A stretch of DNA of 64,000 nucleotides from Oerskovia paurometabola (GTDB taxonomy: Bacteria > Actinomycetota > Actinomycetes > Actinomycetales > Cellulomonadaceae): the NCBI RefSeq assembly GCF_016907365.1, contig NZ_JAFBBV010000001.1, forward strand, positions 124,001-188,000, read 5' to 3'. The notes under the pieces are model-generated. The model was not told the origin of the DNA. It made no database searches and saw only the letters and a list, made by a program, of their open reading frames with translations. The translations under genes were made by a program, and so were the position numbers. The first letter of the stretch is position 1; each line of letters opens with the position of its first letter. Positions 4,842 through 9,632 of this stretch are shown one piece after another.

Positions 4842-5243
4842 TCATCGGGCGGCGTACTCGGTGTCGGTGACGTGCTCGAGCCAGGTCGTGCTCCGGGCAG
4901 GGTCGTCGGCACCCTCCGAGATCGCGAGGTGTTCCATGAAGGAGTCAGGTGCAGCGCCGTGCCAGTGCTGCTCACCCGGAGGGCAGTACACCGTCTCGCC
5001 GGGCAGGGCCCGGACGACCGCGCCGTCCCTGGTACCGACCAGCGCGACACCGGAGACGACATGGAGGAACTGACCGCGGGCGTGGACGTGCCAGGCGGTG
5101 CGTGCACCGGGGGCGAAGCGAACGCGTCCGACGACGGTGCGTTGATCGCCGTCCAGCGGGCTGACGATCATGTCGAGCCAGACGTCGCCGGTGAACTGCT
5201 CGGGCGGGTTCTTCGTCGTGGGGGCCCGCGGCAGGGTACGCAT
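4842..5243 (-). CDS. Cupin-domain protein, (R)-mandelonitrile-lyase/CMD-associated type
   Basis: This is a single small cupin of 133 residues. The metal-binding motif reads AWHVHARGQFLHVVSG (motif 1, with two His, Gln and His) and GETVYCPPGEQHWHGA (motif 2). Such cupins sit next to carboxymuconolactone-decarboxylase-like proteins and aldo/keto reductases in many bacteria. The ATG at 5243 has GAGGAG upstream and overlaps the stop of the XRE regulator by one base (TGATG), so the two are translationally coupled. It probably belongs to the same regulated redox cluster as the four divergent genes. The substrate is unknown. Confidence 0.85.
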   Translation of the reverse strand: MRTLPRAPTTKNPPEQFTGDVWLDMIVSPLDGDQRTVVGRVRFAPGARTAWHVHARGQFLHVVSGVALVGTRDGAVVRALPGETVYCPPGEQHWHGAAPDSFMEHLAISEGADDPARSTTWLEHVTDTEYAAR

Positions 5244-6181
5244 CAGCGTTCTTCTCCTCGAAGCGTGGACTGGGACGGGGACCGGGACGGGGCGGGGCGT
5301 TCCTCCTGCTCGCGGGTCGCGGCCCAGGACGCGAGGAGCTTGAGCCCGTCGTCGGACGGGGACCCGGGGACCGCGGTGTAGACGTTGAGCTGCAGGCCGG
5401 TGTCGGCGGGCAGCTCGAGGGCCTCGTAGTCGAGCTCGAGCGTGCCCACTGCGGGGTGGTGGAACACCTTGGTGCCCGTGCGGTGCAGCCGCACGTCGTG
5501 CGACGCCCACAGCCGGCGGAAGTCCTCGCTGCGTGTGGAGAGCTCCCCGACCAGTCCGGTGAGGGCCGTGTCGTACGGGTTCTTGCCCGCCTCGGCCCGC
5601 AGGATCGCGACCGCGTCGTGCGCGATGCGGTCGTACCGGTCCCCCCAGAATGCCCGTGCCGCCTCCGCGTCGAGGAACTGGAACCGGGCACTGTTGACCG
5701 GCCTCTTCGCGATCCGCTCGGGCGACTCGTACATGGGCGAGTACAGGGCCCGCCCCAGCGTGTTCGCCCCGAGCACGTCGAGCCGACCGTTGCGCACGAA
5801 CGCCGGCGCGCCCTCCATCGAGTCCAGGATCCGCTGGACCACCGGACGGAGGACGGGCGCAGAGGTGCGCCTGGCGCGTGACCGGGCAGCCCCGGACTGG
5901 TTCGCCGCGCGGGCGAGATCGAACAGGTGGTGGTGCTCGGCCTCGTCGAGCTGCAGCGCCTGGGACACGGCCTCGAGGACCTCCTCGGACACACCGCCCA
6001 GGTTCCCGCGCTCGAGCCGCGTGTAGTAGTCGACGCTCACACCCGCGAGCATCGCGACCTCCTCACGGCGCAGGCCCGGCACACGCCGGTTGCCACCGTA
6101 CGCGGGCAGGCCTGCGCGCTCGGGGGTGATGCGCGCCCGGCGGCTGGTGAGGAACTCGCGGGTCTCGGCCTTCAGGTCCAT
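5243..6181 (-). CDS. XRE-family regulator with MmyB-like ligand-binding domain
   Basis: The protein has 312 residues. The N-terminal HTH (about 25-85) includes PGLRREEVAMLAGVSVDYYTR and the rest of an XRE helix-turn-helix. The long C-terminal part has the MmyB-like PAS-type domain (VLDALG-type ANTLGRALYSPMY, DGLKLL near the end). These proteins are DNA-binding regulators thought to sense a hydrophobic ligand. Upstream, TACCGT lies 7 nt before the ATG, the -10 position of a leaderless transcript. One copy of a 16-bp inverted element lies 22 bp further out, so autoregulation is likely. It is co-transcribed with the cupin and divergent from the aldo/keto reductase operon, which it probably controls. 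Confidence 0.88.
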   Translation of the reverse strand: MDLKAETREFLTSRRARITPERAGLPAYGGNRRVPGLRREEVAMLAGVSVDYYTRLERGNLGGVSEEVLEAVSQALQLDEAEHHHLFDLARAANQSGAARSRARRTSAPVLRPVVQRILDSMEGAPAFVRNGRLDVLGANTLGRALYSPMYESPERIAKRPVNSARFQFLDAEAARAFWGDRYDRIAHDAVAILRAEAGKNPYDTALTGLVGELSTRSEDFRRLWASHDVRLHRTGTKVFHHPAVGTLELDYEALELPADTGLQLNVYTAVPGSPSDDGLKLLASWAATREQEERPAPSRSPSQSTLRGEER

Positions 6182-6336
6182 GCCTTCGACGGTACGGCCG
6201 ACGCCCCGCTCCTGGGAGGTTCTGCTGGTACCTGGGGCTCCCTGCTGGCGCGGACCGGCGCCGCGACGTCGTGACGTCCGAGCGGGGTACCAGCAGGACC
6301 TGCCTCATCCGGCGGAAACCTCCTAGCGTGAAAGGC
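6182..6336. promoter_or_regulatory. Mirror-symmetric divergent promoter-operator
   Basis: Two 16-bp elements, AGGTTCTGCTGGTACC at 6217-6232 and its inverse GGTACCAGCAGGACCT at 6286-6301 (one mismatch), flank a 53-bp centre. On each side exactly 22 bp separate the element from a TANNNT box (TACCGT at 6189-6194 on minus, TAGCGT at 6324-6329 on plus), and exactly 7 bp separate that box from the ATG. The dyad centre at 6259 is also midway between the two start codons. The layout suggests one dimeric regulator, presumably the XRE-MmyB protein, abutting both -35 regions. Confidence 0.7.
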
Positions 6337-7236
6337 ATGACGACGAACCCGATCCCCACTCTGACACTGAACGACGGCACCGAGATGCCCGCCCTCGGGT
6401 ACGGCGTCTTCCAGACGCCCCCGCAGGAGACCGTCGACGTGGTCACCGAGGCGCTGCGTACCGGCTACCGGCACATCGACACCGCCGCCGCCTACGGCAA
6501 CGAGCGCGAGGTCGGACGCGCGATCGCCGGATCCGGTCTCGAGCGCGACGAGATCTTCGTCGAGACGAAGGTCTGGATCAGCGACTACGGCTACGACGCG
6601 ACGCTGCACGCGTTCGACAAGTCCGCTGGAAAGCTCGGCATCGAGACCATCGACCTGCTGATCCTGCACCAGGCGCTGCCGAGCCGGTTCGACCTGACGA
6701 TCGAGGCCTACCGAGCGCTGGAGACGCTGCTCGCCGACGGCAAGGTCCGCGCGATCGGCGTCAGCAACTTCATGCCCGAGCACCTGACCTCGCTCCTCGA
6801 GGCCACCACGGTGGTCCCGGCCGTCAACCAGATCGAGGTCCACCCCTACTTCCAGCAGAAGGGCCTCCAGGAGCTGCACGCCGAGCACCGCATCCTCACG
6901 CAGGCGTGGTCGCCGATCGGCGGCATCACGTTCTACCCCGGCTACGGCGAGGAGCGTCGCAGCACGCTCGAGGACCCGACGATCGGCCGGATCGCCACCG
7001 CGCACGGCAGGACGCCCGCGCAGGTGATGCTGCGCTGGCACCTGCAGCAGGGCCGCTCCGCGATCCCCAAGTCCGTCACCCCCGCGCGCATCGCCGAGAA
7101 CTTCGCCGTCACCGACTTCGAGCTCACGGGCGACGAGCTGGCCGCGATCGACGGCCTGGACACGGGCGTCCGCGGCGGTCCCGACCCCGCCGACATCACG
7201 CTCGAGACCTTCGGCCGCGAGATCCCCGAAGCCTGA
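6337..7236 (+). CDS. Aldo/keto reductase
   Basis: This is a cytosolic NADPH-dependent carbonyl reductase of 299 residues. The AKR tetrad is visible: Asp48 (GYRHIDTA), Tyr53 (AAYGNE), Lys78 (VETKVW) and His111 (LLILHQA). The cofactor end has IPKSVTPARIAENF. It resembles AKR5-type 2,5-diketo-gluconate/methylglyoxal reductases. The ATG at 6337 is preceded by TAGCGT and 7 nt, with only AAAGG as a possible RBS, so the transcript is probably leaderless. It is first in a cluster with zinc ADH (67 bp gap), a CMD protein and DUF2255. The shared context suggests carbonyl or electrophile detoxification. Confidence 0.9.
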   Translation: MTTNPIPTLTLNDGTEMPALGYGVFQTPPQETVDVVTEALRTGYRHIDTAAAYGNEREVGRAIAGSGLERDEIFVETKVWISDYGYDATLHAFDKSAGKLGIETIDLLILHQALPSRFDLTIEAYRALETLLADGKVRAIGVSNFMPEHLTSLLEATTVVPAVNQIEVHPYFQQKGLQELHAEHRILTQAWSPIGGITFYPGYGEERRSTLEDPTIGRIATAHGRTPAQVMLRWHLQQGRSAIPKSVTPARIAENFAVTDFELTGDELAAIDGLDTGVRGGPDPADITLETFGREIPEA

Positions 7237-7303: not shown

Positions 7304-8353
7304 ATGCGAGCAACACTCATGTACGGCGCCGGAGACGTCCGCATCGAGACCGTCCCCGACCCCGTCCTCCAGCAGCCCACCGACGCCATCGTGCGCGTCG
7401 TGCGGGCCTGCGTCTGCGGTTCGGACCTGCACCCCTACCACTCCATGCGTGGGGCGACCCAGGGCAACCCGATGGGCCACGAGCTCATCGGCGTCGTCGA
7501 GGAGACCGGCAGCGCCGTGACGAACGTCAAGAAGGGCGACTTCGTCATCGCCCCGTTCGCGTTCTCCGACAACACGTGCGTGTTCTGCCGGGAGGGCTTC
7601 CAGACCTCCTGCGTGCACGGCGGATGGTACGGCTCCCGCGAGACCGGTGGCCTCCAGGCCGAGCTCGCCCGCATCCCGCTGGCCGACGGCAGCCTCGTCG
7701 TCGTCCCCGACGTCGACCCGGCGACCGCCGACGAGGGACTGCTGAACTCCCTGCTCACCCTGTCCGACGTGTACCTCACCGGCTACCACGCAGCGCACAT
7801 GGCACAGGTGCAGCCCGGCCAGATCGTCACCGTGATCGGTGACGGAGCCGTCGGGCTGTCCGCCGTGCTCGCCGCCAAGCAGCTCGGCGCCGAGCGGATC
7901 ATCCTCATGGGCCGGCACGCCGCGCGCACCGACCTGGGGCGTGAGTTCGGCGCGACCGACGTCGTCGCTGAGCGTGGCGCCGAGGGCATCGGCAAGGTCA
8001 TGGACCTCACCGGAGGCGAAGGCTCGCACGCCGTGCTCGAAGCCGTGGGCCACATGCCCGCCTACGAGCAGGCCTACGGCGTCGTCCGCCCCGGCGGGAT
8101 CATCTCCCGCGTCGGCGTCCCCCAGTACGAGGACGCCCCCGTCGGGTTCGGGTCCCTGTTCGGGAAGAACGCACGCCTCGCCGGTGGCCCCGCCCCGGTG
8201 CGGGCCTACCAGGAGGCAGCGATCGCCCAGGTCCTCGCAGGGGAGATCGACCCCGGCAGGGTGTTCGACGCGACCCTGCCGCTCGAGGACGTCGCCGAGG
8301 CCTACCGCCTCATGGACTCCCGCGAGTCCCTCAAGGTCGCCCTGCGGCCCTGA
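7304..8353 (+). CDS. Zinc-dependent alcohol dehydrogenase (MDR superfamily)
   Basis: This is a medium-chain dehydrogenase/reductase of 349 residues. Catalytic zinc ligands are Cys38 (CGSDLHPYH) and the His59-Glu60 pair (GHE). The Rossmann fold starts at VTVIGDGAVGLSAVLAAK. The structural-zinc lobe has Cys92, Cys95 and Cys103, but the position of the usual first Cys (89) is Asp. It ends DSRESLKVALRP, as in threonine-dehydrogenase-like members. The ATG has GAGAGG upstream. It is second in the cluster after the aldo/keto reductase; both interconvert alcohols and carbonyls, so they may act on the same metabolite. The substrate is unknown. Confidence 0.9.
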   Translation: MRATLMYGAGDVRIETVPDPVLQQPTDAIVRVVRACVCGSDLHPYHSMRGATQGNPMGHELIGVVEETGSAVTNVKKGDFVIAPFAFSDNTCVFCREGFQTSCVHGGWYGSRETGGLQAELARIPLADGSLVVVPDVDPATADEGLLNSLLTLSDVYLTGYHAAHMAQVQPGQIVTVIGDGAVGLSAVLAAKQLGAERIILMGRHAARTDLGREFGATDVVAERGAEGIGKVMDLTGGEGSHAVLEAVGHMPAYEQAYGVVRPGGIISRVGVPQYEDAPVGFGSLFGKNARLAGGPAPVRAYQEAAIAQVLAGEIDPGRVFDATLPLEDVAEAYRLMDSRESLKVALRP

Positions 8354-8425
8354 CCACCGGGGGTGGGCGCCCCGGCGCCCACCCCCTTCCCTTCCGTGTC
8401 CCCGACCCCGCCCCGAGGAGTGGTC

Positions 8426-9181
8426 ATGGCCCCCACACCGTCCGCACGCGCCCACCACGACGAGCTGTTCCCCGACCACGTCTCGACGCTCGCAAGGACC
8501 GACCCGGAGCTCGTCGAGTACTTCGACAACTTCGCGTTCGACGAGGTGCAGCGCGACGCTCCCCTGCCCGTGCGCACCAGGCTCATGGTCCAGCTCGCCG
8601 CGCTCATCGCCTGCGGTGCCCTGCACGAGTTCCGCGTGATGGCCGGCGCCGCGCTGACCGTCGGCGTCACGCCGGTCGAGGTCAAGGAGGTCGTGTACCA
8701 GGCGGTGCCGTACGTCGGCATGGGTCGCGTGCTCGACTTCCTGCACGCGACGAACGCGCTCCTGACCGAGCGCGGTGTCAGCCTGCCGCTGCCCGGCCAG
8801 TCGACCACGACGCCGGACACCCGCTCGGAGGCCGGGCTCGCGGTGCAGAAGCAGATCGTCGGCGCGGACGCCGTCGACGCGATGTACGCGAACGCGCCGG
8901 CCGACGAGCAGCACATCCAGCGGTACCTGTCCGCGAACTGCTTCGGCGATCACTACACCCGCGACGGGGTCGACGTGCCCACGCGCGAGCTGCTCACCCT
9001 CGCCATGCTGATCGCCCTCGGCGGAGCCGAGCCCCAGGTCGCCGGTCACGTCCGCGCCAACCTCGACGTCGGGAACGACCGCGCCACGCTCCTGGCGGTC
9101 ATCACCCAGCTGCTGCCCTACGTGGGCTACCCGCGCACCCTCAACGCGTTGCGCGCGCTGGACGAGCACGCCCCCGCCTGA
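8426..9181 (+). CDS. Double carboxymuconolactone-decarboxylase (CMD/AhpD-like) protein
   Basis: The protein has 251 residues with two CMD repeats. The first (about 45-110) has RTRLMVQLAALIACGALHEF and VEVKEVVYQAVPYVG; the second (about 160-245) has RELLTLAMLIALGG and LLAVITQLLPYVGYPRTLNAL. The single Cys in the first repeat is not the Cys-x-x-Cys of AhpD peroxidases. Members of this group accompany cupins and aldo/keto reductases in gene clusters. The ATG at 8426 has GAGGAG about 6 nt upstream; the 72 bp before it contains a C-rich run. It is presumably a trimeric or hexameric cytosolic enzyme of the cluster; the reaction is unknown. Confidence 0.88.
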   Translation: MAPTPSARAHHDELFPDHVSTLARTDPELVEYFDNFAFDEVQRDAPLPVRTRLMVQLAALIACGALHEFRVMAGAALTVGVTPVEVKEVVYQAVPYVGMGRVLDFLHATNALLTERGVSLPLPGQSTTTPDTRSEAGLAVQKQIVGADAVDAMYANAPADEQHIQRYLSANCFGDHYTRDGVDVPTRELLTLAMLIALGGAEPQVAGHVRANLDVGNDRATLLAVITQLLPYVGYPRTLNALRALDEHAPA

Positions 9182-9266
9182 GCAGGCGACGCGCCACCGC
9201 ACCATCGATCCTGAGGGGACGTGCAGGACCGCCGACATGGCCCCCTCACCACGAAGGAGCAGCACC

Positions 9267-9632
9267 ATGAGCGACTGGAGTTCCGCCGACCTGGCGGCCA
9301 TCGACGCCGACGGCGAGCTGCGCGTCGCCGCCCACCGCCCCGACGGGACGCTGCGCACCCCCCGCATCGTGTGGCACGTCGTCGTGGACGACCATCTGTA
9401 CATCCGCTCCGTGCGGGGCGTCGACGGTGCCTGGTACCGCGGCGTGCAACGCACGGGCACCGGTCAGATCGACTCCGGCGGAGTCCGCGCCGACGTGACC
9501 TTCGTCCGCGACGGCAGCCACGACGACGCCGTCGACGCCGCCTACCGCGCCAAGTACGGCAACGGCTCGGCCGTCGACCACATCACGGCACCCGGCGCGC
9601 GCGCCACCACGCTGCGCGTCGAGCCGGCCTGA
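9267..9632 (+). CDS. DUF2255 family protein
   Basis: A small protein of 121 residues with WSSADLAAIDADGELRVAAH, a central RIVWHVVVDDHLYIRS strand pair, a WYRGV motif, and AYRAKYG near the end. This pattern is that of DUF2255, a flavin-reductase-like split-barrel family that often ends oxidoreductase operons. AAGGAG precedes the ATG. It is the last gene of the aldo/keto reductase cluster, 85 bp after the CMD gene. A role in binding a flavin- or deazaflavin-like cofactor is an inference from the fold, not visible as a motif. Confidence 0.78.
   Translation: MSDWSSADLAAIDADGELRVAAHRPDGTLRTPRIVWHVVVDDHLYIRSVRGVDGAWYRGVQRTGTGQIDSGGVRADVTFVRDGSHDDAVDAAYRAKYGNGSAVDHITAPGARATTLRVEPA

Follow-up and report, generated by a model that had tools for sequence, protein, structure and literature searches.

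A mirror-symmetric divergent promoter in Oerskovia paurometabola as the probable meeting of two predicted MmyB promoter modules

Genes and features of the locus

The window, i.e. the whole 64,000-nt stretch analysed here from a contig of Oerskovia paurometabola (NZ_JAFBBV010000001.1), contains a regulator gene, called mmyB, that is divergent from an aldo/keto reductase (AKR) gene, with 155 bp between them (Table 1); the best named relatives of the locus are Oerskovia. The mmyB product matches PF17765 (E 6.4e-55, 186 bits against a cut-off of 26.3) and HTH_31 (E 1.9e-9) in Pfam, where both HTH_31 and HTH_3 pass the cut-off, and among solved structures only 3pxp (MltR; E 1.9e-7) is related to it at E <= 0.001. 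It has the N-terminal XRE-type HTH and the C-terminal MLTR domain of the MmyB/MltR family, and mmyB and AKR show the divergent arrangement that is usual (though not strictly defining) for this family. The top NCBIfam match of the AKR is DkgA, at 264 bits short of its cut-off of 425. The medium-chain dehydrogenase (MDR) gene that follows is probably cotranscribed with it. On the other side, the cupin passes the NCBIfam threshold for (R)-mandelonitrile lyase, which is perhaps a hint that the signal lies in cyanohydrin or aldehyde chemistry.

Table 1. Genes and predicted promoter elements of the mmyB–AKR locus (positions in the window)
Feature	Position	Strand	Remarks
Cupin, (R)-mandelonitrile-lyase-like	4842..5240	-	NF049940 155.5 bits, cut-off 140; directly 3' of mmyB
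XRE/MmyB-family regulator (mmyB)	5243..6181	-	XRE-type HTH at N-terminus, MLTR ligand-binding domain at C-terminus
-10 box TACCGT	6189..6194	-	19 nt past 19-bp box, 7 nt ahead of ATG
19-bp MmyB box of mmyB, GGTACCAGCAGAACCTCCC	6214..6232	-	Site present here in 36 distinct ortholog loci
Centre between boxes, 53 bp	6233..6285		Length varies among relatives
19-bp MmyB box of AKR, GGTACCAGCAGGACCTGCC	6286..6304	+	Module at best AKR, 29/35 genomes with an MmyB at least 70% identical
-10 box TAGCGT	6324..6329	+	19 nt past 19-bp box, 7 nt ahead of ATG
Aldo/keto reductase (AKR)	6337..7236	+	PF00248 E 1.5e-46
Zinc-dependent medium-chain dehydrogenase (MDR)	7304..8353	+	PF08240/PF00107; 67 nt past AKR
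Carboxymuconolactone decarboxylase-like protein (CMD)	8363..9181	+	PF02627 E 7.9e-33; start uncertain
DUF2255 protein	9237..9632	+	PF10012 E 3.9e-35; start uncertain

Mirror geometry between mmyB and AKR

Read outward on the plus strand, GGTACCAGCAGGACCT (6286-6301) is followed by 22 nt, TAGCGT, 7 nt and the ATG at 6337, and on the minus strand GGTACCAGCAGAACCT (6232-6217) is followed by 22 nt, TACCGT, 7 nt and the ATG at 6181-6179, so that the first-pass annotation, which had described this order and spacing on both sides, proves exact on direct reading. The two 16-bp elements are identical at 15/16 positions, and a repeat search extends the inverted pair to 19 nt (89% complementary). When the 155-bp intergenic region was shuffled 100 times with dinucleotides preserved, no inverted pair of 15/16 appeared (the best was 14, once), so that the pair exceeds chance. 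It is also true that the dyad centre coincides with the midpoint of the start codons, since elements, inner edges and start codons all share the midpoint 6259.0. This is without value as independent evidence, because it follows from the element-to-ATG distance being equal on both sides. The AAGGC that had been pointed out before each ATG is indeed present on both sides, but the stretch is only partly kept in relatives. As a Shine-Dalgarno sequence, AAAGGC beside the ATG was rejected, as it appears to lie too near the start codon.

A conserved module ahead of mmyB orthologs

From 52 loci, 40 distinct upstream regions were obtained, of which 36 loci were retained; L002, L020, L021 and L022 were left out, being distant, fragmentary or with the start unset. 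Boxes were located by anchoring on GTACNGT, the gap being picked by best match, and the box PWM was built from the mmyB-side boxes of this same set of loci (excluding L039). Some loci were assigned to genomes through identical 250-bp upstream sequence.

A 19-bp box with a consensus near GGTAMYGSCAGNACCTCCC precedes TACNGT by 19 nt in 32/36 loci and by 20 nt in the other 4/36. In 35 loci, 13-19 of the 19 positions agree with the consensus, against 11/19 in L039, where the mmyB-side box is degenerate and overlaps a clear AKR-side box. The distance from the -10 to the aligned mmyB start is 6 or 7 nt in 35 loci; in L035 the aligned start lies further downstream and an ATG sits 7 nt past the -10. 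Two blocks are conserved, i.e. the box with its CTCCC and the -10, while the spacer at the place of a -35 is little conserved (32 loci). The ideal palindrome, as constructed in this analysis, is GGTACTG-S-CAGTACC, with CTCCC following it; ortholog boxes have on average 4.8/7 palindromic pairs vs 2.1/7 over all windows of sequence, and the two boxes of the locus have 4/7 each, with differing PWM scores of 29.5 and 23.6 bits. A comparison of the spacing in relatives, as the first-pass annotation had proposed, thus gives a divided answer: the distance from box to ATG is kept to about 1 bp, but the centre is not kept.

The module ahead of AKR and MDR in relatives

The AKR side was examined in the 57 genomes whose AKR match reached E <= 1e-100, a module being defined by a box score >8 at a gap of 19 or 20. 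The best AKR carries a module in 29/35 genomes with an MmyB at least 70% identical (with a gap of 19 in 29/29), in 8/15 genomes with an MmyB 55-69% identical, and in 1/7 genomes whose MmyB match is weaker or absent, this one being weak and at gap 20. The difference between the first and last groups has a Fisher p of 0.001, and at a score >12 (28/35 vs 0/7) a p of 0.0001, both values being optimistic as the genomes are related. The six misses among the genomes with a close MmyB are G167, G029, G160, G162, G080 and G033. In G167 and G029 the module sits at MDR instead; G160, G162 and G080 keep CTCCC at N19 before TANNNT without a clear box at AKR, and G033 keeps a weak AKR box (2.7) at gap 19. 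Among the loci, L004 and L050 have a module ahead of MDR.

The AKR with its module need not be adjacent to mmyB. In eight loci (L003, L006, L007, L010, L011, L035, L045 and L046) the distance to the mmyB start is 0.67-1.8 kb, in G192 it is 0.64 Mb, and in G205 it is 0.23 Mb, but there a 57% paralogue is found at about 1.4 kb. The AKR of L010 and that of L011 each form one half of a second divergent module pair, of which the other half is a flavodoxin-like gene (labelled by eye); counted from the start of mmyB, these second box pairs stand at about +831/+931 and +1618/+1679, and mmyB is not part of the pair.

Unlinked sites and candidate regulon

The pattern of box + N19 + TANNNT was searched in 7 genomes of the genus with the reversed pattern as control, which gave 27 matches vs 10. 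A one-mismatch genome-wide search for the box was discarded as a regulon list, since it gave noise (16 matches vs 61 in the reversed control). The unlinked sites precede a DUF2255 gene in G000, G168, G170 and G171, and a second AKR in G167, G168 and G170 (box score 22.8) as well as in G000, G169 and G171 (box scores 11.9-13.0); in G167 the pattern is also found at MDR. The two G000 target genes are DUF2255 and aldo/keto reductase by Pfam, those in the other genomes being labelled by eye. A DUF2255 paralogue elsewhere in the window genome carries an MmyB box: at G000:C1:2458710 (L062/L129) a box with N19-TATGTT stands ahead of this second DUF2255 gene (PF10012). The predicted second-AKR target of G000 is at 1474147.

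At these unlinked sites the leaders are ~40-83 nt long and the 19-nt gap is nevertheless kept, and therefore N19 is tied to the promoter and not to the ATG. In G170 the boxes of DUF2255 and of the second AKR are present, yet its best MmyB match reaches just E 1.9e-85, which suggests that paralogues may read the same boxes.

Paralogues and the ERG and EQG types

Among 40 paralogues (52-64% identical), 34 have a box scoring >5, with a gap of 19 in 30 of these, and 6/40 have none at that score. All 36 orthologs and all 40 paralogues (76/76) have the motif ERG, at a position that general HTH anatomy would place near the recognition helix. Of 30 class-level loci, 7 read ERG and 23 read EQG. A positive-scoring module at gap 19 is present in 4/7 of the former (L192, L195, L197, L204), and a search that required TANNNT near the start found the full module at 0/23 of the EQG-type mmyB genes. 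In two of the 23 EQG loci, L182 and L189, a weak core resembles the box (scores 6.2 and 5.9), and a related core may exist at EQG-type genes. In the window genome a second MmyB reads IEQD, the mmyB described here being the only ERG type of the two found.

By eye, the EQG genes L177, L180, L181, L183, L187 and L190 have a different upstream block in common, around GTACGACC and AATACTGG or similar, which ends a few nt before the ATG and is perhaps another box in the same leaderless design.

For the broader generalisation the chances seem even: ERG-type MmyB proteins would share a cis-code, GGTACTG-S-CAGTACC + CTCCC placed 19 nt before TANNNT, as a movable activator module at regulator, AKR, MDR, DUF2255, flavodoxin-like and probably MFS genes, with ERG vs EQG marking a switch of box and paralogues in one cell reading overlapping boxes.

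Two probable outward copies of one MmyB module

Following these results, it seems probable that the intergenic region consists of two back-to-back copies of one MmyB module, through which MmyB activates both mmyB and the AKR genes. This reading builds on the module, its spacing and range, its unlinked copies and its co-occurrence with MmyB, all seen in the sequences, and infers binding by this particular MmyB, activation (not repression), a leaderless start, control by a ligand and the loss of an MFS gene. Each box, a pseudo-palindrome followed by CTCCC, is a candidate site for one MmyB homodimer, in the order box, 19 nt, TANNNT -10, 6-7 nt and start codon. MmyB would sit on the box, whose centre, with the start codon counted as +1, falls at about -44, most likely when ligand-bound, and would recruit RNA polymerase to a promoter whose -35 is not conserved, thereby turning on its own gene and the AKR-MDR-CMD-DUF2255 genes. 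The second DUF2255 gene, and probably the second AKR, would be unlinked targets. The promoters are probably leaderless, as judged from the first T of TANNNT, which on both sides lies 13 nt before the ATG (~12 bp being usual for this class). Against this reading stand the degenerate mmyB-side box of L039, the 6/35 close-MmyB genomes that fail the AKR test, the 6/40 paralogues with no box above 5, the cases of G170 and G205, where paralogues may act on these boxes, and the training of the PWM on boxes of the loci under study. What the first-pass annotation had said of a divergent promoter pair is supported, and its natural candidate for the regulator, the XRE-MmyB protein, gains support from the box preceding its orthologs and from the AKR module tracking MmyB presence.

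The same two modules could possibly, but less probably, be sites at which MmyB acts as a repressor and autorepressor, blocking RNA polymerase at the -35 until it is released by ligand. The box does abut the expected -35, as had been annotated, and this position suits an activator but also a repressor; XRE proteins are described as commonly autoregulated (PMC12565409), and MsrR represses its own gene and the divergent mfs gene (PMC7532634). However, a repressor site could sit anywhere over the promoter, whereas the spacing is held to ~1 bp across mmyB, AKR, MDR, DUF2255 and second-AKR promoters; moreover, the -35 is not conserved, and published work describes MmyB as an activator (PMC3406030). 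The fixed gap over a place without -35 conservation is the configuration of a class-II-type site. Activation by an MmyB dimer is thus favoured over repression on the pattern of the sites, because a spacing kept to within ~1 bp across unrelated targets would suit contact with polymerase, for which a repressor has no need, and because of that description of MmyB.

Origin of the symmetry

The first-pass annotation had regarded the symmetry over 157 bp as the device itself, with one regulator setting both directions equally, perhaps by MmyB dimers looping the 53-bp centre. This is very unlikely. What speaks for it is the exact symmetry in this one genome. A second outward box (score >18) between mmyB and its neighbour is found in 17/36 loci, with inner gaps between adjacent boxes of -15 to 134 bp that show no helical phase (R 0.03 for a 10.5-bp turn, and R 0.32, p 0.18, for one of 10.0 bp), i.e. 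without the conserved, phased spacing between operators that looping would call for. The boxes of the locus itself are 68 bp apart centre to centre (~6.5 turns at 10.5 bp, and thus out of phase), which is short for a loop, and the AKR modules at a distance from mmyB, in the eight loci and in G192, speak against a single unit as well. All eight of those loci are among the 19 that lack a second box next to mmyB.

In 8/36 loci the neighbour of mmyB is an MFS gene and in 1/36 (L045) an MFS remnant, the gene being partly deleted with its N-terminal part missing. In 8/9 of these loci a start lies 101-102 bp from that of mmyB and the second box is only degenerate. L003, L006, L007, L012, L018, L031, L042 and L045 have one clear box with a mirrored GGGAG/CTCCC, and their -10 seems to be without the A (TNNNNT); one box may serve both genes in these MFS-partner loci. 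In the sister species L003, whose AKR is 97% identical to that of the window, the MFS gene sits between the two modules, so that the halves are ~1.45 kb apart, each at its own gene, and only 4 nt separate the MFS stop codon from the AKR box.

The window and L025 were aligned with the two L003 flanks taken separately. The GAGCGG before the AKR box is common to the window and L003, where two of its bases belong to the MFS stop codon, so that the right end of the 53-bp centre matches the L003 MFS-stop junction, and the left part of this centre carries a CTCCC in the position of the MFS-side promoter. L025, in which AKR is adjacent without an MFS gene, has GGCTCCC in the position that corresponds to the MFS-side CTCCC. 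No close copy of the L003 MFS protein was found in the window genome (best 40% identity). The simplest reading of these alignments would be that an MFS gene was lost from between the modules in the window lineage, although it may have been gained in L003 rather than lost elsewhere. The mirror symmetry is then most likely a by-product of two equal modules meeting and not a conserved loop, since both modules share a fixed box-to-ATG distance and no gene separates them here. That one promoter was instead duplicated recently in inverted orientation to give the two halves, as their 15/16 identity might suggest, is hardly credible, given that the 22-nt spacers are by eye unlike each other, that L003 has each half at its own gene and that unlinked AKR modules occur.

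The case for two meeting modules shows how exact symmetry could arise without symmetric function. With a sharply predicted operator and a small regulon, binding, the sign of regulation and the ligand become testable with short probes and simple reporters.

Comparison with known systems

No published box for this MmyB group was found in the literature searched (mostly outside subscription papers); the matches listed for the box letters searched literally were unrelated by title, and nothing relevant was among the matches listed for Oerskovia. Neither a box sequence or spacing in the accessible text of PMC3406030, nor a box sequence in that of PMC10717218, was found.

Leaderless promoters of Actinobacteria have TANNNT ~12 bp before the start codon, as here, but are treated in the accessible part of PMC3160421 as a general class without a link to a regulator. 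MsrR of Corynebacterium glutamicum is, like MmyB here, an XRE regulator divergent from a neighbouring gene, in its case an mfs gene, and binds between the two (PMC7532634); the likeness extends to the 9/36 loci in which mmyB has an MFS gene or what is left of one as its partner. It differs in being a repressor of 240 aa that senses oxidation through Cys62 (PMC7532634).

The closest counterpart is MmyB of Streptomyces coelicolor, described in PMC3406030 as a protein of the same family, with an XRE HTH and a PAS-like domain, that is an activator using pseudo-palindromic B-boxes; the likeness here lies in the family, the domains and the predicted kind of box and mode of action. It differs in controlling an antibiotic (methylenomycin) cluster (PMC3406030). 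MmyB-family regulators are numerous in actinomycetes, and MltR held a fatty acid (PMC3406030). Of the S. coelicolor paralogues, 15/16 share their upstream region with an opposite target gene, as here across a short intergenic region and often with an oxidoreductase; those paralogues face SDR/MDR genes, whereas the mmyB of the window faces an AKR (PMC3406030). The MmyB family and the divergent arrangement of regulator and target were thus already known from that source, and what is new is the predicted box, its position in the promoter, the unlinked targets and the proposed explanation of the symmetry. Seen in this way, the locus is an ordinary pair of regulator and oxidoreductase with a sharply predicted operator.
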